From positions 558,001 to 622,000 of the forward strand of contig BAOK01000001.1 in assembly GCA_000509225.1 (NCBI GenBank): 64,000 nt of DNA, written 5' to 3'. This document shows positions 38,926-48,209 of the stretch, in pieces. The position numbers and the translations under genes were made by a program. How positions within the stretch are numbered: position 1 is the stretch's first letter; the number at the start of each line of letters is the position of its first letter. The notes beneath the pieces were generated by a model. That model did not search any database and had not been told where the DNA came from. It saw nothing but the letters and a program-made list of their open reading frames with translations. Source of the DNA: Parvibaculaceae bacterium Mf 1.05b.01. GTDB lineage: Bacteria > Pseudomonadota > Alphaproteobacteria > Parvibaculales > Parvibaculaceae.

Positions 38926-40041
38926 TTAGATGAACGAAAGAACTGACCGGTCGCCCTGAGAAGCGAGAGACAGAGCAGTTGTACCCAGAGACTGACGTGT
39001 CTGGAGAGCAAGAAGGTTTGCACCTTCTTCGTTGGTGTCAGCAAGGGTCAGCCCACCAGCACCACTTTCCAGAACACCGATCAGCGAACTCGTGAATTCC
39101 TGACGGTTTTCCACCACGGCAAGGTTGTTACCGAAGGTAGAGGACTGCGACCGCAGCGTTGCTGTTGCAGAGTCCAAGGCCGCTGTTACAGCGTTGATGC
39201 CTGCGTCCGTGCCGAAAGCTGTCGTTGTCGTGTCACTGACGCCAAGTCCAGCAGCATCAAATGTCACACCTGAAATCGTCAGCGAAGAAGAACCGTCTTC
39301 GTTAAACGTAGCAGTCAGGTCGTCGCCGTTCAGCAGGTTCACACCGTTGAAGCTTGCGTCGCCAGCCAACTGGTCAATCTGGTCCAGAAGGTTGTTGTAG
39401 TCTGTGACGAAGCTGTCGCGGTTCGTGCCGGTGTCATACGTACCGGAGAGACCGAGGTCACCGCCCAAAGAGCCAACACCACTTGCGATGGTCACTTCAC
39501 GACCGCTTGCAGCTGACACTTTCAGAGAGCTGCCGGAGAGAGAAGCAGACACGCCGGAGATGCCATTAACAGCAGAAACGAACTTGGAAACCGTCAGGGC
39601 TTTAGCCGTGATGGTTGTCGTTGCGCCATCAACGTTGATGGTGATCGTTTCGGTAGACGCAGCGTTTGCGAATGCTGAGAGTGCTGTCGTTGGGTCTGTG
39701 AAAGACGCAGTAGACGTGATCTCAGTTGCGCTGATCTTGGTGTTCAGAGCTGAGTTGGCAGTTGATTTTGCTTGCTCAACCAGAGTTGAGAGCGAGTCAA
39801 TACCAGCGGCAGCCGCATTCAGTGTTTCAACTGCCAAGCCAACGTCGTCCTGAAGAGTGGACAGGTCAGCTGCCCGGTTCGTCAAGCCTTCAGCGGTGAA
39901 GAATGACGTCGGGTTGTCGATCGGGCTCGCAACTTTAAGACCAGTAGACAGACGGTTGTTTGTACGTGAGAGAAGATCTGCAGTGCTCTGCAGAGAAGAG
40001 AGGTTCTCGCGAACCGCACTTGAGATAACAATATCACCCAT
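38926..40041 (-). CDS. Flagellin 1
   Basis: 371 residues. N-terminal D0/D1 MGDIVISSAVRENLSSLQSTADLLSRTNNRLSTGLKV and C-terminal NNLAVVENRQEFTSSLIGVLESGAGGLTLADTNEEGANLLALQTRQSLGTTALSLASQGDRSVLSFI are classical. The centre (about 100-290) is Ser/Thr/Ala-rich, an expected target for O-linked nonulosonate. Nearly identical to flagellin 2 (40811-41929), with most differences in D0/D1 flanks and leader. Start preceded by AAAGGGA. Its leader has a small stem-loop at 40074-40088. Confidence 0.95.
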   Translation of the reverse strand: MGDIVISSAVRENLSSLQSTADLLSRTNNRLSTGLKVASPIDNPTSFFTAEGLTNRAADLSTLQDDVGLAVETLNAAAAGIDSLSTLVEQAKSTANSALNTKISATEITSTASFTDPTTALSAFANAASTETITINVDGATTTITAKALTVSKFVSAVNGISGVSASLSGSSLKVSAASGREVTIASGVGSLGGDLGLSGTYDTGTNRDSFVTDYNNLLDQIDQLAGDASFNGVNLLNGDDLTATFNEDGSSSLTISGVTFDAAGLGVSDTTTTAFGTDAGINAVTAALDSATATLRSQSSTFGNNLAVVENRQEFTSSLIGVLESGAGGLTLADTNEEGANLLALQTRQSLGTTALSLASQGDRSVLSFI

Positions 40042-40073
40042 TACTCATATCCCTTTCTAGGAATTTACTCGTT

Positions 40074-40088
40074 AGCTCGTTCTGAGCT
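40074..40088 (-). promoter_or_regulatory. Stem-loop in the flagellin 1 leader
   Basis: AGCTC / GAGCT with a 5-nt loop, 33-47 nt upstream of the start codon. A structurally equivalent stem with different bases occupies the same place before flagellin 2, so the pairing appears conserved. Candidate site for FlbT. Confidence 0.55.
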
Positions 40089-40221
40089 GGAGCCATCCTC
40101 GCGCTTTGCGCGTTAAAGGAATCTGAATTTGAGGAGCCTGGGGCCGGTTTGAGCAGTGGGACTTTGGGTTAGAGTTACTTGTCGCTTAAGTAAGTTGCTT
40201 AAGGAAGTATGTACGACGCGG

Positions 40222-40644
40222 CTAACTTTCGCTCGCTGAAGTTTCTTCGGCCGTGCTGGCGAGCGTCCCTGCAATCAGCTCTGCTTCATACTGGATGAGC
40301 TTTTTTGCCGCTTTCAGCGCTTTGTACATGGCGCCGTTCAGGATCTGCGTGTTCACTGCATCAATGTAGGGCAGCGTGCTTGGCGCTGCTTCCTGGACTT
40401 CCTTGACGACCGTGAAGTACATATCGTGATGTTTGACCGGATCCGGTGAGAGATACATCATCTGAACCAGAAGGTATATTTTTTGGCACGGGCTATTGGC
40501 CTCTTCCACCCGCATAACGTCCTTTTCTCGCAGAATGGGCGCGCTTCCCTCAATAAAGAGCCGCGTGCGCTGATCATCGTTCGTGATCACGCTTTCGCCT
40601 AAGATAAAACGTTCGCCGGGCTTGAGCTCAACTTTGAGGGCCAT
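40222..40644 (-). CDS. flbT: FlbT, post-transcriptional regulator of flagellin synthesis
   Basis: 140 residues: MALKVELKPGERFILGESVITNDDQRTRLFIEGSAPILREKDVM, then VEEANSPCQKIYLLVQMMYLSPDP, matching the FlbT family. In Caulobacter FlbT binds the 5' leader of flagellin mRNA and promotes its decay until the hook is complete. Located between flagellins 1 and 2, with 180 nt on one side and a terminator on the other. Alanine/serine-rich C-terminal tail of about 20 residues. Confidence 0.94.
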   Translation of the reverse strand: MALKVELKPGERFILGESVITNDDQRTRLFIEGSAPILREKDVMRVEEANSPCQKIYLLVQMMYLSPDPVKHHDMYFTVVKEVQEAAPSTLPYIDAVNTQILNGAMYKALKAAKKLIQYEAELIAGTLASTAEETSASES

Positions 40645-40758
40645 GACATTTCCTATACCTGAAGCATTCCTTGCCGACTCAATCTACGCGAGATTGGCGG
40701 AAGAAGGAACGTGTCTTATGCGTTTTTCGCCATCGACGGTAAACCTGGTGCCAGAATC

Positions 40759-40789
40759 GAAAAAGGCGGAGACCGAGGTCCCCGCCTTT
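40759..40789 (-). terminator. Intrinsic terminator of the flagellin gene at 40811
   Basis: 13-bp stem AAAGGCGGGGACC / GGTCTCCGCCTTT (one mismatch) followed by T5 on the minus strand. Related in sequence to the flagellin 1 terminator, so the duplicated segment includes the 3' end. Confidence 0.88.
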
Positions 40790-40810
40790 CCGGATGTCGT
40801 CGAGAAGAAC

Positions 40811-41929
40811 TTATCGAATGAACGAAAGAACTGCCTGGTCGGACTGTGAAGAGAGTGACAGGGCAGTTGTACCCAGAGACTGACGTGTCTGAAGGGCAAG
40901 CAAGTTGGCCCCTTCAACATTGGTGTCAGCAAGGGTCAATCCACCAGCACCACGTTCCAGAACGCTGATCAGCGAGTCTGTGAAGTTCTGACGGTTTTCC
41001 ACCACGGCAAGGTTGTTACCGAATGTAGAAGACTGTGTCCGCAACGTGTTTGTTGCGGAGTCCAGGGTGGAAACTACGGCATTGATGCCTGAGTCAGTCC
41101 CGAACGCTGTGGTTGTCGAGTCGCTCAGGCCAAGACCTGCTGCGTCAAACGTAACCCCAGAGATCGTCAGCGAAGAAGAACCATCTTCGTTGAATTTCGC
41201 TGTCAGATCGTTGCCGTCAAGAAGGTTCACACCGTTGAAGCTCGCATCAGCAGCCAACTGGTCAATCTGGTCCAGAAGGTTGTTATAGTCTGTAACGAAG
41301 CTGTCACGGTTTGTACCGGTATCGTATGTGCCGGTCAGGCCGAGGTCACCGCCCAAAGAGCCAACACCGCTTGCGATGGTCACTTCACGACCGCTTGCAG
41401 CAGAGACTTTCAGGGAGCTGCCGGAGAGAGAGGCAGACACGCCGGAGATGCCATTAACAGCTGAGACGAATTTGGAAACCGTCAGAGCTTTCGCTGTAAT
41501 GGTTGTCGTCGCGCCATCAACGTTGATGGTGATCGTTTCAGTAGACGCAGCATTTGCGAATGCTGAAAGAGCCGTCGTTGGGTCCGTGAACGAAGCAGTG
41601 GAGGTGATCTCTGTTGCTTTGATCTTGGTGTTCAATGCAGAGTTTGCAGTTGATTTCGCTTGCTCTACCAATGTTGAGAGCGAGTCAATACCAGAAGCTG
41701 CTGCACTGAGCGTTTCAACAGCAAGGCCAATATTGTCCTGCAGCGTTCCAAGGTCAGCTGCCCGGTTGTTCAGGCCCTGAGCTGTGAAGAACGATGTTGG
41801 GTTGTCGATCGGGCTCGAAACTTTAAGACCGGTAGACAGACGGTTATTTGTACGTGAAAGAAGATCTGCAGTGCTCTGCAGAGAAGAGAGGTTCTCGCGA
41901 ACCGCACTTGAGATAACAATATCACCCAT
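40811..41929 (-). CDS. Flagellin 2
   Basis: 372 residues, close duplicate of flagellin 1: identical N-terminal 36 residues, and the stretch coding TKISATEITS-like to DLGL (about residues 100-215) differs by only a few bases between copies. C-terminus ends SSQSDQAVLSFIR. The same leader layout (AGGAAAGG site, stem-loop at 41964-41976) and the same type of terminator. Filament subunit, probably glycosylated. No sigma-54 promoter of good quality precedes it. Confidence 0.95.
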   Translation of the reverse strand: MGDIVISSAVRENLSSLQSTADLLSRTNNRLSTGLKVSSPIDNPTSFFTAQGLNNRAADLGTLQDNIGLAVETLSAAASGIDSLSTLVEQAKSTANSALNTKIKATEITSTASFTDPTTALSAFANAASTETITINVDGATTTITAKALTVSKFVSAVNGISGVSASLSGSSLKVSAASGREVTIASGVGSLGGDLGLTGTYDTGTNRDSFVTDYNNLLDQIDQLAADASFNGVNLLDGNDLTAKFNEDGSSSLTISGVTFDAAGLGLSDSTTTAFGTDSGINAVVSTLDSATNTLRTQSSTFGNNLAVVENRQNFTDSLISVLERGAGGLTLADTNVEGANLLALQTRQSLGTTALSLSSQSDQAVLSFIR

Positions 41930-41963
41930 TGGTACTTTCCTTTCCTAGGAACTAACTTTCGAC

Positions 41964-41976
41964 GCTCATCCTGAGC
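41964..41976 (-). promoter_or_regulatory. Stem-loop in the flagellin 2 leader
   Basis: GCTCA / TGAGC with a 3-nt loop, 35-47 nt before the start codon, equivalent in position to the stem before flagellin 1 but with a changed closing pair. Confidence 0.55.
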
Positions 41977-42205
41977 TGTCGTCACTATGGGTGCCGTTGG
42001 TAAAATTAGCGTAAACGGGTGCAACGAATTTTCGAGATAGTTGGATACGGTTCGTTGAGGGTAAGTTCTTCTCCCACGCGTCGGATTTGAAAAGGCCTTT
42101 GTTTCCGGCGAAAACTGTCCCTAATTTCTGATGAAGGGGAAAGCGTATCGCTAATGATGTGTTGCCAAAATTTTTGAATTACCGCAGGTACCCGTGACAC
42201 TTTGT
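41977..42205. other. Upstream region of flagellin 2
   Basis: Must contain the flagellin 2 promoter and the end of the flaF-like transcript. No GG-N10-GC sigma-54 pair in the correct orientation and no clear terminator hairpin were found; no ORF. Confidence 0.35.
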
Positions 42206-42565
42206 TTAGGTTACGAAAGTGCTTTCTGCGCAAAATTCAGCTGCCAGCTCTCGGTTCAGGGTGACCAAAAGATGCACCGCAGTCGGTGTGGGAGTGGCCA
42301 ACGCAGCATGGGTGTAGCGAAGGACTGTGGCTGCAAGCGCAGTTGTTTGAAGGCACAAAGAGTTTGAGAATTGACAGTCCGGGTCGGATAGGAGCTTGTC
42401 GACGATCAGATTCCAGATATGGAGATTGTCGGTCAGCGCATCGGATAGCTGTAACTGTGAAGTGTCATCAGGTTTGATGCTATCGAGGCGCGAGGCGGAA
42501 GCAATGAGAAATTCAGCTTCGCGATGCCGCAGGGTTTCTGCCGAAACAGGACGCGCAGAAACCAT
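42206..42565 (-). CDS. Diverged FlaF-like protein
   Basis: 119 residues. RHREAEFLIASASRLDSIK and ALTDNLHIWNLIVDKLLSDPDCQFSNSLCLQTTALAATVLRYTHAALATPTPTAVHLLVTLNRELAAEF align with the two FlaF blocks (ELEANLLLRAASQL and ALHFNRQLWSIF...NLANLSLFVFKQTLE...LININRQIAAGL). It is shorter at both ends and has gained two cysteines in the middle. It follows the third, divergent flagellin by 104 nt, as the standard flaF follows flagellin 1, so it is probably the dedicated FlaF of that flagellin. Confidence 0.75.
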   Translation of the reverse strand: MVSARPVSAETLRHREAEFLIASASRLDSIKPDDTSQLQLSDALTDNLHIWNLIVDKLLSDPDCQFSNSLCLQTTALAATVLRYTHAALATPTPTAVHLLVTLNRELAAEFCAESTFVT

Positions 42566-42602
42566 GTTGTTAGTGTCCCGTGTTGTTTGGTCTTTTGGGT
42601 GG

Positions 42603-42624
42603 GGACGAGGCCGAAGCCTCGTCC
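42603..42624 (-). terminator. UUCG-tetraloop hairpin between flagellin 3 and the flaF-like gene
   Basis: On the minus strand a 9-bp perfect stem GGACGAGGC / GCCTCGTCC closes a TTCG tetraloop. No T-tract follows, so it may be a 3'-end stabiliser or processing signal between two cistrons, not a terminator. Confidence 0.5.
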
Positions 42625-42669
42625 GTCCAGACCGTGTTCTTGGGACAGTGTGTAGAACAGCTCATTTTT

Positions 42670-43797
42670 TTAGAAGAGCTGCAGTACGTTTTGTTCAGCC
42701 TGCGCGGCGATTGAGAGGGCAGTGGTGCCCAGGGATTGCCGTGTCTGCAAGGCCAGAAGGTTGGCGCCTTCCTCGTTTGTGTCGGCGAGTGTCAGCTTTG
42801 CAGCGCCGGTTTCCAACGTGTTCACCATATTGTCGGTGAAGCCCTGCCGGATTTCGACAACACCCAAGTTTGCACCGAATGTTGAAGCCTGTGACCGCAA
42901 TGTGCTGATCGCGCCATCCAACTCTGCAATGAACGATCTGATCGTCGCATCGTTGGTAAAGTCATCGGCGTTCACAGAAGTTACGCCCAGGCCTGCTGAG
43001 TTTAGGGTGACACCCTGGATTGTCAGCTGACTGGTTTGTGACTCGTTGAAGTTCACCGTCAGATCATCGCCGCTTAGCAGGTTGATGCCCTGATAAGAAG
43101 CATCCGCGGCCAGTTCGTCAATTTGCGTCCGCAAACCGTTGAAGTCACCTTCAAACTGTGTACGGTTCTGGCCGTTGTCGAAGGTCCCGTTGATGCCGAG
43201 ATCTGTTGCAACAGAGCCAACACCACTTGCGATGACAAGGTCAGAGCCATCGTCCGCTTCAATTCGGAATGAACCGTTTGACGTGATGCTTGCCGAAATT
43301 CCGCTCAGTCCATTGATAGAACTGATGAACTTCGAAACAGTCTGACCACCGACGGTAATTGCAACGGCAGTGCCGCCGTCAAACGCGATGGTGATCTGGT
43401 CTGTTGAAGCGATAGATGAGAAAACTGCTGTCAGATTTAGCGTCTGATTTGTGACAGCATCTCTTGGGCCTTCGACGAAAGAGGCGTTGATTGGTGTATC
43501 AAGTGCCTGGTTCGCGGTGGCCTTTGCCGTCTCGATCAGCTTGGTAAGAGCTTCGATGCCCTCATCCGCTGTTCTGAGTGTTTGCACAGCCTGATCCATC
43601 GAATCCAACAAGTTGGTCAGATCGGCTGCACGTGTGTTTAGATTCCGAGCCGTAAAAAAGGCGGTCGGATCATCGATAGCGCTGTTGACCTTCAAACCGG
43701 TCGCGAGGCGCTCATTGGTTGTTGCCAGCAAGCTCGCTGTGTTCTGCAAACTAAGCAGATTTGAGCGAATTGCTCCTGATAAAACCACATCAGACAT
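42670..43797 (-). CDS. Flagellin 3 (divergent)
   Basis: 375 residues. MSDVVLSGAIRSNLLSLQNTASLLATTNERLATGLKVNSAIDDPTAFFTARNLNTRAADL and ANLGVVEIRQGFTDNMVNTLETGAAKLTLADTNEEGANLLALQTRQSLGTTALSIAAQAEQNVLQLF. Same layout as flagellins 1 and 2 but much less similar in D1 and the centre. Start preceded by CGGAGGG. It alone has a clear sigma-54 promoter (44001-44015), a long leader and an upstream ORF ending over its start. By analogy to Caulobacter FljJ-type minor flagellins it may build a specialised filament section. Confidence 0.94.
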   Translation of the reverse strand: MSDVVLSGAIRSNLLSLQNTASLLATTNERLATGLKVNSAIDDPTAFFTARNLNTRAADLTNLLDSMDQAVQTLRTADEGIEALTKLIETAKATANQALDTPINASFVEGPRDAVTNQTLNLTAVFSSIASTDQITIAFDGGTAVAITVGGQTVSKFISSINGLSGISASITSNGSFRIEADDGSDLVIASGVGSVATDLGINGTFDNGQNRTQFEGDFNGLRTQIDELAADASYQGINLLSGDDLTVNFNESQTSQLTIQGVTLNSAGLGVTSVNADDFTNDATIRSFIAELDGAISTLRSQASTFGANLGVVEIRQGFTDNMVNTLETGAAKLTLADTNEEGANLLALQTRQSLGTTALSIAAQAEQNVLQLF

Positions 43798-43951
43798 GGT
43801 CTATACCCTCCGGGCTTTTGCCGAACTGTCCCGTTCCGGCACGGTGCGTATACTCGGAGTTAATCATTAATGCCCGGTAAACAGTGTGTCGAATTGATAC
43901 GCTGGTGGCTTTGCCACTAACATTCCAATTTTTGCTCCGTCTACGGATCAT
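43790..43951 (-). CDS. 53-codon upstream ORF in the flagellin 3 leader
   Basis: Too short for most gene finders. ATG at 43951-43949 with AGGAGGAAATC directly upstream (spacing 5), the strongest ribosome site in the region. It encodes a basic peptide beginning MIRRRSKNWNVSG and ending SPEGIDHV, no signal peptide, and stops at TGA 43792-43790, inside flagellin 3 (overlap of 8 nt with ATGTCTGA). Such coupling lets ribosomes finishing the peptide restart on the flagellin. Could be a leader peptide controlling flagellin 3 or a real small protein; also possible is chance. Confidence 0.55.
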   Translation of the reverse strand: MIRRRSKNWNVSGKATSVSIRHTVYRALMINSEYTHRAGTGQFGKSPEGIDHV

Positions 43952-43954
43952 GAT

Positions 43955-43996
43955 TTCCTCCTAAACCGGCAGAACGCCGGCTTTCGTCAGGAGGAA
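43955..43996 (-). promoter_or_regulatory. Inverted repeat covering the ribosome site of the upstream ORF
   Basis: TTCCTCCT (43989-43996 read on the minus strand) is the exact complement of AGGAGGAA (43955-43962), and inside them AAA-CCGGC pairs with GCCGG-TTT with one bulge. The predicted sigma-54 start (about 43989) would leave the outer arm untranscribed, keeping only the inner stem. Confidence 0.55.
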
Positions 43997-44000
43997 CATC

Positions 44001-44015
44001 GCAAAGGTTGGGCCA
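44001..44015 (-). promoter_or_regulatory. Sigma-54 promoter of flagellin 3
   Basis: Minus-strand TGGCCCAACCTTTGC: GG and GC separated by exactly 10 nt, TTGC -12 box, -24 box identical to that of flgE (TGGCCC). Predicted start near 43989, about 190 nt before the flagellin start. Confidence 0.85.
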
Positions 44016-44097
44016 GTTTATAAAACCGTTTTAAATCAATGGCTTAGGTTGTTTTTGAAGGTGTGGGGTTGGGCAAGTTATGCCCTGGCCAGGTAGG

Positions 44098-44147: not shown

Positions 44148-45986
44148 CTACTTCGTGCTTGCGAGCTGGGTTACTTCCTGAACAATCTTATCCACTGATT
44201 GTTGAAGAGGGGCATTCCAGGCTTTACCGAACCAGGTCGTCTCGGGGTACCAGGGCAGGTAGTCTGTGCCCAGGCACATAGGGTGTCGATGCGGCCCATA
44301 GGCAAAGCAGCGGCTGCCGACAGCGCCGGCAATATCGGCCACGGAAACGGGTGCGGAAATGACGACATCCATGGCGGTTGTGAGCGCAGCTGCACCGTCG
44401 AGGTCGTTCATCAAGTCCAATCCCGCAACCTGGTGGATCTGGGCATCGAGACGCGAATTCACGTCGTTGATCTCTTCGTCAACAGTGTCGTACTGAAGAT
44501 TTATGAGTTGGATGTTGGAATTGCCAAACAAGTCCTTCCAATCCTCCAGCTCAGTATAGAAGCGCCGCCGGTTTGCCGTCATGTTGCGGCTTCTCCAGGC
44601 GATGCCCACTTTGAGGCCACTGCCGAGGGCGTCGATGTCAGCCCTCAGCTGCGCAACTTGATCAGGTTTGGGCAATAAATAGCCGCCCGTTGACGGGAAT
44701 TCGCTTAGATTGGTTCGAACCAGACCTGGTAGAGAGCCAGCTGCGATATCGTAATCGATGTCACCATCAAACTGTACATCGCCTTCCGCACGGATTTCAG
44801 CGAAGGGGAAAGATCTTTCATAAAGGGTCATCAGACGCGGATCTGTTTCAATCAGAACCTTTCCGCCTTCTTCTTTGGCCCGGTTTATGATGTCGTTGAA
44901 GCACGAGGCAAAGCGAACATCGTCACCAACGCCCTGTTCACGCCAAATGTAGAGAGTTTTGCCGGCGAGGGATTCACCCTGCCAGGCATTTAAGCCAATT
45001 CTACGCTGGCGAACCAGTGCATCGCCGCCACCGAAGCGGGCTTCGTAGAGCTTCCAGCCTTCGGTTAGAGAGCCGTTCGCGAGAAGGGCGATGGAGAGGT
45101 CTCCTTTGTAAAGTCCCTCCTTACCATCAAGATCAAGCGCGATCCTATATTCTGATATCGCTTCGTCAATGCGCGCCTGGCCCTGAAGAACTGTGCCTAA
45201 AAGGTCGTGAGCGGTCGCATCTGACCTGTTGAGAGCGATAAGTTCGCGGTACTGGGCTTCCGCTTCGTCGAAGCGGACGAGCGTTTTGAGGGAGTTCCCC
45301 CTATTGATCATTGCGCTACGTGAGGAGGGAAGCAGCTCTAAGGCTTTGTCGGATAGAGCCAGGGCTTCCTCTGCGCGATCCCCAGAGTTGAGGACGCCAG
45401 CAAGGTTGATGAATGAGGGTACATAAGAGGGATCGTGTTCAATTGCGCTTTCAAAGGCAAAAACTGCTTCGTCGCCTTGCCCATCGGCGTGAAGGGCGTT
45501 TCCGAGATTGTAGTAGGCCATCGCCATTTCTGGCGCCATTTCGACCAGGTCTTCGTATGCCTCGATTGCCGCATCCAGCCGTCCAGCATCGCGCAAGGTG
45601 CCGGCGAGCGTCATGAGTGCGTCGGCATAATCCGGCTTAAGTTCAAGTGCCGTTTCGAGAGACGTGATGGCGTCATCATATTTTCCCAAACGCCGTTGTG
45701 CCGACCCTTTGACCATCCAGGTGCTTGGCATGTCGGGTTTGAGGCCAATTGCCTTGTGTGCTGTCTCTAGTGCGCGGGCATTCTTGCCCAAATTGAGCTG
45801 TGCGTCCGCCAGGAGGTTGAGAGCGGCCAGTTCTTTTGGCGCTTTTTTCAGTGCTTTCTCATAGGCTTTGCTTGCGTCCGCGAATTTTCCTTGTCGATGG
45901 GCGAGCATTCCTTTTTGGATCAGCTCATTCGCGGTTTTCTTGGGTGCGGCCGTATTGGTTGTCGTCCCGGCAAGTTTGGCAGGCAT
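44148..45986 (-). CDS. TPR-glycosyltransferase, FlmG-like (copy 1)
   Basis: 612 residues. About eight to nine TPR units from residue 20 to 290 (e.g. GKFADASKAYEKALKKAPKELAALNLLADAQLNLGK, MAYYNLGNALHADGQGDEAVFAFESAIEHDPSYVPSF), then a GT-B-like domain: GKTLYIWREQGVGDDVRFASCFNDI, LIETDPRLMTLYERSFP, LKVGIAWRS, INLQYD, DLDGAAALTTAMDVVISAPVSVADIAGAVG, HRHPMCLGTDYLPWYPE. This architecture is that of Caulobacter FlmG, which transfers a nonulosonate onto flagellin; TPRs bind the flagellin. Starts 3 nt after copy 2 stops, so the two are translated together. Confidence 0.85.
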   Translation of the reverse strand: MPAKLAGTTTNTAAPKKTANELIQKGMLAHRQGKFADASKAYEKALKKAPKELAALNLLADAQLNLGKNARALETAHKAIGLKPDMPSTWMVKGSAQRRLGKYDDAITSLETALELKPDYADALMTLAGTLRDAGRLDAAIEAYEDLVEMAPEMAMAYYNLGNALHADGQGDEAVFAFESAIEHDPSYVPSFINLAGVLNSGDRAEEALALSDKALELLPSSRSAMINRGNSLKTLVRFDEAEAQYRELIALNRSDATAHDLLGTVLQGQARIDEAISEYRIALDLDGKEGLYKGDLSIALLANGSLTEGWKLYEARFGGGDALVRQRRIGLNAWQGESLAGKTLYIWREQGVGDDVRFASCFNDIINRAKEEGGKVLIETDPRLMTLYERSFPFAEIRAEGDVQFDGDIDYDIAAGSLPGLVRTNLSEFPSTGGYLLPKPDQVAQLRADIDALGSGLKVGIAWRSRNMTANRRRFYTELEDWKDLFGNSNIQLINLQYDTVDEEINDVNSRLDAQIHQVAGLDLMNDLDGAAALTTAMDVVISAPVSVADIAGAVGSRCFAYGPHRHPMCLGTDYLPWYPETTWFGKAWNAPLQQSVDKIVQEVTQLASTK

Positions 45987-45989
45987 CGG

Positions 45990-48035
45990 TCAATCCTTCG
46001 AAATGGCGAGATATGCTAAGACGTCATTTGTGATCTTCTCGACGATTTTCTGGTGGTCGGCCGTGTCGATCATTGAATAGAGGCGCGTGTTGGGGAACCA
46101 GGGTATGTGGTCTGTCCCCAATTGCATGGGATGCCTGCTCATGACGTAGCAGAAAGTTGGTTTGTGAAGGGCTCCCGCCATTTCGCCGACTGAAGTCGGT
46201 GAGGTTACAACCACATCCATGCATGATGTCAGAGCGGCTGCACCATCCAGATCATTATAAAGGTCGATATCAGGCATCTGGTGGATGGTCAGGCCGTGGT
46301 CAGCCTGAAGCTCATTCAACTCTTCTGTGACATCATCATATTGCAGGTTAATAAAATTCACGCCCTTGGACTGGAGGAGTTTGATCCAATCTGTGAGTTT
46401 GGTGTGGTAGAGCGCACGCGTTTTTGTCATCAGGCTTGAACGCCAGGCAATGCCCACTTTTGGGCCTGGGCCAAGGTTTTCAAGCCATTGAGTGCACTTG
46501 AGCTGTACTTTGGGGTCGGGCAAAAGCGGTTTGGGATCAGTTGGGAAGTCTTCCAATGATCGGCGCAGATAGGACGCGGCCATTCCAGCGGGTGCTGTCA
46601 GATCAAAATCAACATCTTCCTCGCGCATTGTACCGAGGCCGGTGCTTGTCCGGGTTTCTGGCCGAACAAGTGCGTTCGGCCATGTGCGTTGATAGAGAGG
46701 AACCAGCCTCTCGTCTGTTTCGATGATGAGTTTTTGAGCTTTGCCGACCAGGTCGTGATAGATCGTGGAAAAGCGGATGTCGTCGCCCAATCCCTGTTCC
46801 CGCCAGACAAATAGCGTTTTATCACTCACATCTTCGCCTTCCCAGATTAGACCGGGGAAGGGTCGGTGAGGTTGCCTTTGTTTGGAGGTGAAGCCATAGC
46901 CAAACAGGCTCCAACCTTCGTCCAGTCGTCCTGCTGACAAGAGAGCGAGGGCCAGGTTCCAATAGGCCATGTCCATCTTTGGCTTAATGTTCAGGGCGAT
47001 TTCATAGGCGCGGAGTGCCTCTTCGGGGCGGCCAATGGTTTGCAGGACAGACCCAAGGTTGACATAGGCCTCTGCGAATTTGGGCGAAATCTCGATGGCC
47101 TTTTGGAAGGCGGAAAATGCATCTTCGTTCATGGCTTGTGCGCTCAGAACCCGACCAAGTGTGCAATAGGCTTCGGCGTATTCAGGGCGAATGGCCAGGG
47201 CCTGATCTATCAGATCGACTGATTTTTGATGGTCTTCCCGATCTAAAGCGAGGTTGGCGAGATTTACATAGGCTTCCGCGCAATCTGGATCGATTTCAAT
47301 CGCCCGGTTTAGTTTCTCTTCCGCTTCGTCTTGGCGGTTTAGGTCTTTCAGAATGCCGCCGAGATTGCAGAGAATGCTGATATTGTCTGGCTGCAGACGT
47401 TCTGCGATCAAGAAATGCTCAACTGCTTTTTGAGGGTGGCCGTCATCCCGCAGCGCATTGCCATATTCCAGCTGAAACAGCGCATCGTCTGGTCGAAGTT
47501 CAACCGCCCTGGCTACCGCTTTTAGCGACTCTTCGCTGCTATTCATGGCCCTAAGGGCACGAGACCGGTTCTTGTGGGCGAGAGGATCCGCGGGTGCGAG
47601 TGCCAAAACCGTGTCATAGCACTTTAACGCTGAGCTGAAATCATCTCGCTGAAAGAGAAGGTTGCCGAGATTAAGGTGAGCCTTCAGGTTTTCTGAATCT
47701 GTTTCTACGGCTTGCCGGTAGCAGGCTTCAGCCTCACCGATCCGACCCTCTGCCTCATACACCAGGGCTAGATTGAAGTGAGCGTCTGAAAAGGTCGGGT
47801 CGACGTCCAGCGCCCTACGGATCCAATCTACGGCTTTGTCATTATGTCCCGCTTGATGCGCCAAGACCCCCATGAGGTGCAGGGCGCCTACATGGGATGG
47901 GTTTGCGGTCAGAACTTTGCTGTAGCGTTTTTCCGCCTGCTCGTGCCGACCTTTCTGATGAAGCCGGACCGCCTGTTTCATGGTTCGGTCAATATCCAGA
48001 CCTTGCGCTTGAACAGGTTGAGGCGTTGAGCTCAT
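45990..48035 (-). CDS. TPR-glycosyltransferase, FlmG-like (copy 2)
   Basis: 681 residues from ATG 48035; 66 nt of extra open frame upstream (ATG 48101) lack a better site. About ten TPRs (e.g. RHEQAEKRYSKVLTANPSHVGALHLMGVLAHQAGHNDKAVDWIRRALDVDPTF, AEAYVNLGSVLQTIGRPEEALRAYEIALNIKP), then DKTLFVWREQGLGDDIRFSTIYHDLVGKAQKLIIETDERLVPLYQRTWP, KVGIAWRSSLM, INLQYDDV, DLDGAAALTSCMDVVVTSPTSVGEMAGALHKPTFC, RHPMQLGTDHIPWFPNTRLYS. The catalytic domain aligns with copy 1 throughout while the TPR arrays differ in number and sequence, as expected for two acceptor specificities. Confidence 0.85.
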   Translation of the reverse strand: MSSTPQPVQAQGLDIDRTMKQAVRLHQKGRHEQAEKRYSKVLTANPSHVGALHLMGVLAHQAGHNDKAVDWIRRALDVDPTFSDAHFNLALVYEAEGRIGEAEACYRQAVETDSENLKAHLNLGNLLFQRDDFSSALKCYDTVLALAPADPLAHKNRSRALRAMNSSEESLKAVARAVELRPDDALFQLEYGNALRDDGHPQKAVEHFLIAERLQPDNISILCNLGGILKDLNRQDEAEEKLNRAIEIDPDCAEAYVNLANLALDREDHQKSVDLIDQALAIRPEYAEAYCTLGRVLSAQAMNEDAFSAFQKAIEISPKFAEAYVNLGSVLQTIGRPEEALRAYEIALNIKPKMDMAYWNLALALLSAGRLDEGWSLFGYGFTSKQRQPHRPFPGLIWEGEDVSDKTLFVWREQGLGDDIRFSTIYHDLVGKAQKLIIETDERLVPLYQRTWPNALVRPETRTSTGLGTMREEDVDFDLTAPAGMAASYLRRSLEDFPTDPKPLLPDPKVQLKCTQWLENLGPGPKVGIAWRSSLMTKTRALYHTKLTDWIKLLQSKGVNFINLQYDDVTEELNELQADHGLTIHQMPDIDLYNDLDGAAALTSCMDVVVTSPTSVGEMAGALHKPTFCYVMSRHPMQLGTDHIPWFPNTRLYSMIDTADHQKIVEKITNDVLAYLAISKD

Positions 48036-48209
48036 GGGCCTGCGATCCTTGCTGGTGTTGTATCTGGTCCAAGACCGGTTTCGTTGTCTTAGAAGTCTCA
48101 AATTAGGGTTAGCAGAGCGTTAACACATGTTGTCGATGCCCCAGAAATGAAGGTCTCTGGTGTGGCGGGCGAGCGTCAATCAGATCTCGGAAGCTCGAGC
48201 CTCTGTGCC

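Follow-up and report, generated by a model that had tools for sequence, protein, structure and literature searches.

A short reading frame in a flagellin leader of Parvibaculaceae, probably part of flagellin production control in some bacteria

Translationally coupled leader open reading frames (ORFs) end in a stop codon that overlaps the start of the next gene, and the flg-Rhizobiales RNA motif is a cis element that lies ahead of flagellin in Alphaproteobacteria. FlbT of Caulobacter is reported to bind the 5' UTRs of flagellins and to repress their translation, and the consulted part of the source calls the mechanism by which it times this translation unknown (PMC3930126). The excerpt consulted of a second paper describes FlbT as also binding FljJ, a flagellin paralogue (PMC7591256). 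Here, we analyse a flagellin leader in a genome that itself carries flbT. In a search of the open-access literature, covering titles and the beginnings of abstracts, no description of a flagellin leader ORF of this kind was found among the matches listed.

The window, a 64,000-nucleotide stretch of DNA from Parvibaculaceae bacterium Mf 1.05b.01, holds a minus-strand cluster (38926–43797) with the transcription order flagellin 3, flaF, flagellin 2, flbT and flagellin 1, read by eye, with flagellin 3, flaF and flbT identified through Pfam (Table 1). By eye, flagellins 1 and 2 are very similar, and flagellin 3 is more distant. In the leader of flagellin 3, on the same strand, AGGAGG (43962–43957) is followed after 5 nt by an ATG (43951–43949), and the 53-codon frame that begins there ends over the flagellin-3 ATG (43797–43795) with a TGA (43792–43790), the overlap reading ATGTCTGA; the sequence matches what the first-pass annotation had described. 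Flagellin 3 has its own GGAGGG, 8 nt ahead of its ATG. Two large TPR-repeat proteins lie directly upstream of flagellin 3 (44148–45986 and 45990–48101, both minus strand, the second searched as 45990–48044), a layout that recalls FlmG, the Caulobacter flagellin glycosyltransferase with a flagellin-binding TPR region, as presented in the excerpt consulted (PMC7591256); there was no glycosyltransferase among the 25 families listed for each protein.

Table 1. Features of the flagellin-3 leader and its surroundings, in window coordinates.
Feature	Position	Strand	Evidence
Leader ORF, 53 codons, overlapping the flagellin-3 start	43790..43951	-	Sequence; start and open frame in 12/34 family leaders
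Shine-Dalgarno AGGAGG of the leader ORF	43957..43962	-	Sequence; SD-like motif and ATG at the matching place in 13 leaders
N-terminal non-core part of the ORF, fast-evolving	43883..43951	-	23 codons in the window; 23–29 in relatives
Conserved core GTTTAC-N5-ATTAA-N2-ATTAA-N5-AGT, near-palindrome	43852..43882	-	Spacing invariant in 22 aligned family leaders and 3 of a second family
Whole leader block, core to flagellin start	43785..43892	-	Nucleotide model R1: 34/40 family genomes, one match each, E <= 0.01
Possible hairpin GCCGG...TTCGGC, upstream of the flagellin Shine-Dalgarno	43820..43840	-	Single-sequence folds; no RNAalifold consensus pairing
Shine-Dalgarno GGAGGG of flagellin 3	43806..43811	-	Sequence
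Putative sigma-54 (-24/-12) promoter TGGCCCAACCTTTGC	44001..44015	-	TGG-N10-GC; transcription start expected near 43990 (inferred)
Flagellin 3	42670..43797	-	Pfam Flagellin_N 9e-13, Flagellin_C 1.1e-08
flaF	42206..42565	-	Pfam FlaF 1.3e-10
flbT	40222..40644	-	Pfam FlbT 2.6e-42

The 8-nt overlap had been described as looking designed for translational coupling. It is present, but it is a by-product of how flagellin begins: the TGA of the ORF is read from the first flagellin codons, ATG-NNT-GA (Met-X-Asp/Glu), and the same arrangement occurs in relatives without the ORF and in flagellins 1 and 2 of the window, which likewise start ATGGGTGA. Of the 24 flagellins for which a start is available, a count that includes the window's own (L012) and leaves out L030, which has no start, all but L026 begin ATGNNTGA (23 of 24). 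Because the TGA comes from flagellin's own first codons, the overlap needs no design, and we rejected it as an argument. The Shine-Dalgarno argument, taken alone, was rejected as well: the window has 3 instances of AGGAGG-N4-8-ATG, shuffles average 2.62, and 47 of 100 shuffles reach 3. Counting both strands, 76 ORFs of at least 40 amino acids overlap the surrounding 10 kb. The chance-level motif and the by-product overlap both speak for the main rival to a coupled leader ORF, namely that the ORF is incidental: the conserved core would be open in frame for reasons of its own, the SD-like motif and ATG upstream would be there by chance or for another purpose, and nothing would need to be translated. 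We consider this account possible, if on the unlikely side.

The leader itself is conserved as nucleotides. Within the bacterium's own family (40 genomes, five genera), the leader block precedes a flagellin-3 homologue in 34 genomes; the 34 leaders comprise 33 with a matched core and that of G035, whose core has one mismatch (L070, from the same genome as L030, is uncounted). In five of the six genomes without the block, no homologue of flagellin 3 was found at E <= 0.001; completeness is given as 100% for two of these (G006 and G008) and as 57–88% for the remaining three. The sixth, G025, has two flagellin matches. G006 and G008, with neither homologue nor leader match, are possibly non-flagellated. 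Five relatives of flagellin 3 could be named, four of them Rhodobiaceae/Parvibaculaceae metagenome assemblies and the weakest a contig labelled Verrucomicrobia.

Beyond this family, the core also precedes a flagellin in three genomes of a second family (f121), all three of which have a stop codon in the frame of the ORF. Among 385 genomes sampled across the class, the exact core without its AGT was present in 7, four from the bacterium's own family and the three from f121, and the reversed control pattern was present once; extending the core to AGT returned the same 7 exact sites, all of which precede flagellins. Core matches with two mismatches were about as many in this sample as for the reversed control pattern. 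A lax nucleotide model (R2) matched 107 of the 385 genomes at E <= 1, with only 7 matches below 1e-12, and no flagellin match was found at the 14 weaker-match loci checked (L085–L087 from R2 and 11 two-mismatch core loci).

Conservation of the reading frame was borne out for part of the family, not the whole of it. Of the 34 leaders, 13 have an SD-ATG unit at the matching position upstream of the core, and in 12 of these (five from genus g1, two from g3, two from g5 and three from g4, namely G030, G031 and G036) it shares the frame of the core, which stays open as far as the flagellin start; the unit of G013 is in frame, but a TAA intervenes before the core. The other 21 leaders lack a unit at the matching position (33 genomes were scanned, G035 was judged by eye). 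The gene can thus be kept without the ORF, and these 21 leaders and the interrupted one add to the case for an incidental frame. A loose motif scan found other SD-ATG motifs in ORF-less leaders L033 (-118), L057 (-96) and L066 (-13), none open to the flagellin start; a match in L018 was a clipped artefact. L026 has in-frame ATGs with no SD-like motif, its frame extending 53 nt into the flagellin gene, and in L057 and L058 the core frame stops 22 nt ahead of the flagellin ATG. A protein model of the ORF matched 25 of the 40 family genomes, five with stops inside the match, and a flagellin match lies directly downstream at all 25 loci, the flagellin start itself being missing in G018. In this genome (L030/L070) the core is present and the flagellin start is absent right after it, reflecting a deletion or an assembly error. 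On a flagellin tree of 34 proteins (31 from the bacterium's own family and three from f121, with G018, G019 and G020 left out), the ORF-bearing rows fall into the g1/g3/g5 clade (9/9) and a small g4 clade (3/5), and three state changes are needed.

Where the unit occurs, it lies 69, 72, 78, 81 or 87 nt from the core, all multiples of three. The sequence in between varies in length and differs strongly between genera, except for a short stretch after the ATG, which reads ATGNTCCGTAGA in G000, G003, G004, G030, G031 and G036, and ATGATCCGTAAA in G002. The SD-ATG spacers also vary among the 13 leaders, with a weaker SD-like motif in G036 and G013, and SD and ATG are retained while the intervening spacer changes. 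That all 13 units are in frame at five distances, that 12 of the 13 are open, and that SD and ATG persist despite the changing spacer all count against an incidental ORF. In same-composition shuffles, the probability of an open frame was 0.20–0.48 per representative, giving a product of ~7e-4 over six lineages, a post hoc figure for related lineages that omits the G036/G013 lineage (one member open, one interrupted). These frame and openness numbers favour selection for in-frame translation, short of proof. Relative to the A of the flagellin ATG, the first stop base of the 12 open ORFs is at +5 in eight leaders, +1 in one and -4 in three; in L016 (G001), a 4-nt insertion shifts the stop to an ATGA overlap. 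A +5 stop comes free with the flagellin codons, and 14 of the 22 leaders that lack an open ORF have one too. Coupled translation, as the first-pass annotation proposed it, fits the start, frame and near-ATG stop that 12 of 34 leaders from several lineages have kept, and draws no evidence from the overlap itself.

Stabilisation of mRNA is a principle known for other 5'-proximal ribosome sites, and ribosomes at or from the 5'-proximal Shine-Dalgarno sequence might likewise shield the long leader from RNase, with flagellin initiation independent of them. Such a role would suit a peptide that is apparently irrelevant and an ORF start that lies ~30–38 nt past the predicted transcription start in the 11 leaders examined out of the 12 with the ORF; yet it does not itself need a frame open to the flagellin ATG, which is what 12 of the 13 leaders have, and we regard it as improbable.

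We detected no purifying selection on amino acids in either the core or the non-core part of the ORF. Across four close pairs, with the start codon excluded, the non-core part differs at 24 first, 17 second and 22 third codon positions, and its codons show 9 synonymous and 37 non-synonymous changes, a synonymous fraction of 0.196 against 0.209 for random placement; this random-looking evolution of the non-core part would also be expected of an incidental ORF. In the core, entropy by codon position over the 12 ORF-bearing leaders (0.37, 0.50 and 0.47 for 15 codons; 0.44, 0.58 and 0.43 for 21 codons) revealed no third-position excess, and synonymous changes make up 0.132 of the codon differences in the ORF frame versus 0.124 and 0.173 in the other two. 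Leaders that lack the ORF, or have stops in its frame, keep the core nucleotides all the same. The leader peptide matched nothing in NCBIfam and nothing above the cut-off in Pfam (best E 0.056), and a search for a plasmid copy of it gave no match.

Since purifying selection was not detected and the core is kept in ORF-less leaders, the suggestion in the first-pass annotation that the ORF encodes a new small basic flagellar protein did not hold up, and we consider it highly improbable: the non-core part evolves as if amino acids were irrelevant, and the C-terminal half is kept as nucleotides. In its favour, the C-terminal motif VYxxLMINSEYTxRAGxxQxG is alike in seven aligned peptides (the window and six relatives), and the first codons, M-x-R-R/K, are common to 4 of 5 leaders in g1 and to the three g4 leaders that carry the ORF; these codons are, however, near-identical at synonymous sites as well, which points to nucleotides. 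A conserved short ORF does not, then, imply a conserved protein.

Upstream of the core, TGG-N10-GC is present in all 28 leaders examined (25 from the bacterium's own family and three from f121; the 15-mer of g4_015 is doubtful), and this sigma-54-like element lies roughly 190–235 nt before the flagellin ATG in the family, giving the order sigma-54-like element, variable stretch, core. Taken alone, the motif is no rarer than chance, TGGC-N7-TTGC occurring 3 times in the window against 4.15 expected. A palindrome, GGGCATAACTTGCCC (44071–44085, minus strand), and a nearby CCCGGCAAAA lie upstream of the sigma-54-like promoter; they could be activator sites of the FlbD ftr-like kind.

Folding the whole leader of the window gave z-scores of -4.2 to -4.3 against shuffles, and the leaders of some relatives also outdo their shuffles, while the fold is weak elsewhere (-0.2 to -0.8 in several relatives, +1.4 in one). 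A 5' hairpin in the window pairing CCTCCT with AGGAGG (leader fold z -4.23) was rejected as a general feature, its CCTCCT arm being missing in L005 and L008–L010; the arm is possibly not wholly transcribed, because the predicted transcription start falls on it. We likewise rejected a conserved RNA hairpin for the core: the RNAalifold consensus is an unconvincing -2.36 kcal/mol with 7 pairs, of which a single one shows a two-sided change, and z for the core plus its 3' part ranges from -1.94 to +0.45 over 28 leaders. A known RNA family was rejected too, no Rfam covariance model matching over the leader at E <= 1, with a few matches elsewhere below gathering scores. Among seven lineage representatives, the pairing of the ORF start region is stronger with the core of the same leader than with foreign cores (43 of 5040 permutations did as well); this advantage is carried by g1 and G036/G013, with little or none in g3, g5 and G030/G031.

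The core may instead act as DNA, either as a binding site (a CtrA-like TTTA-N7-TTAA, doubled as an inverted pair) or as a hidden second promoter, a reading to which we give an appreciable minority chance and which is compatible with both an incidental ORF and a stabilising one. Consistent with it are the invariant spacing with free spacers, the near-palindrome, matched on both strands, the unconvincing consensus RNA structure, near-matches elsewhere in the genome of which some resemble a CtrA box, and the CtrA full site itself, given in the consulted part of the source as TTAA-N7-TTAA (PMC6180460), from which one half-site in the core deviates. Against it, the bacterium's own genome holds the exact core once, and the class sample shows it exclusively ahead of flagellins; with up to 3 mismatches allowed, the own genome has 13 near-matches versus 6 for the reversed control; and the predicted site lies downstream of the presumed sigma-54 start, with half-sites that deviate from the canonical TTAA. 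CtrA-box-like sequences elsewhere in the genome include L108 (~1461–1483), L110 (~1540–1562) and L113 (~1491–1513), with downstream genes that by eye are histidine-phosphotransfer-like, ribonucleotide reductase-like and permease-like, respectively; the genes beside the CtrA-like near-matches, read by translation, form no clear regulon.

We place at about even odds (roughly 0.5) the reading in which the leader ORF is translated and coupled to flagellin 3, the act of translation mattering and the peptide being a by-product. From the sequence, we infer its translation, its coupling to flagellin and its gating purpose. The flagellin mRNA would start from the putative sigma-54 promoter with a ~190-nt 5' leader; ribosomes would load at the leader-ORF Shine-Dalgarno sequence near the 5' end, cross the conserved core and the flagellin ribosome-binding region, terminate no more than a few bases from the flagellin ATG, and there re-start or hold the ribosome-binding site open. 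Flagellin translation would depend on leader translation because ribosomes would reach the flagellin start via the leader ORF, and selection would maintain the start site, the frame and the near-flagellin stop while leaving the amino acids free. Leader translation could in this way gate flagellin synthesis, possibly against FlbT repression, and it would be natural to suppose that an FlbT-type repressor competes with ribosomes on the leader ORF. As the ORF appears to be kept for translation and spans a conserved regulatory stretch, it is probably part of flagellin production control in some bacteria.

A more specific version, which we hold only tentatively and think doubtful, is a cis switch in which translation of the sequence-free ORF across the conserved element would decide flagellin synthesis: the start region would pair with the element, and ribosome loading, occupancy of the element by FlbT or another factor, and the flagellin ribosome-binding site would be mutually exclusive. 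If true, relatives that lack the ORF would operate this element with no input from ribosomes. A compact core seen only before flagellins, together with the natural split into ORF-bearing and ORF-less leaders, would make the FlbT timing question directly testable.

Among known systems, the leader differs from the flg-Rhizobiales RNA motif in that no Rfam match at E <= 1 overlaps it. It resembles a CtrA box in its TTTA-N7-TTAA and a weaker inverted copy, but departs from one in its deviating half-sites, its position inside a presumed transcribed leader, and an extended form found only before flagellins in the genomes sampled. With coupled leader ORFs, it shares its own Shine-Dalgarno sequence, a short ORF, a stop codon at most a few bases from the start that follows, and a free peptide sequence; unlike them, it has an overlap that is mostly a by-product of flagellin codons 1–3, and a conserved nucleotide element inside the ORF. 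Involvement of FlbT/FlaF in the leader is plausible. Compared by description with the FlbT-regulated leader of Caulobacter, in which the consulted part of the source mentions no leader ORF (PMC3930126), the locus shares a 5' UTR on a flagellin gene that is sigma-54-dependent there and has a putative promoter of this type here, and, as a further likeness to Caulobacter, flbT and flaF lie beside flagellin 3.
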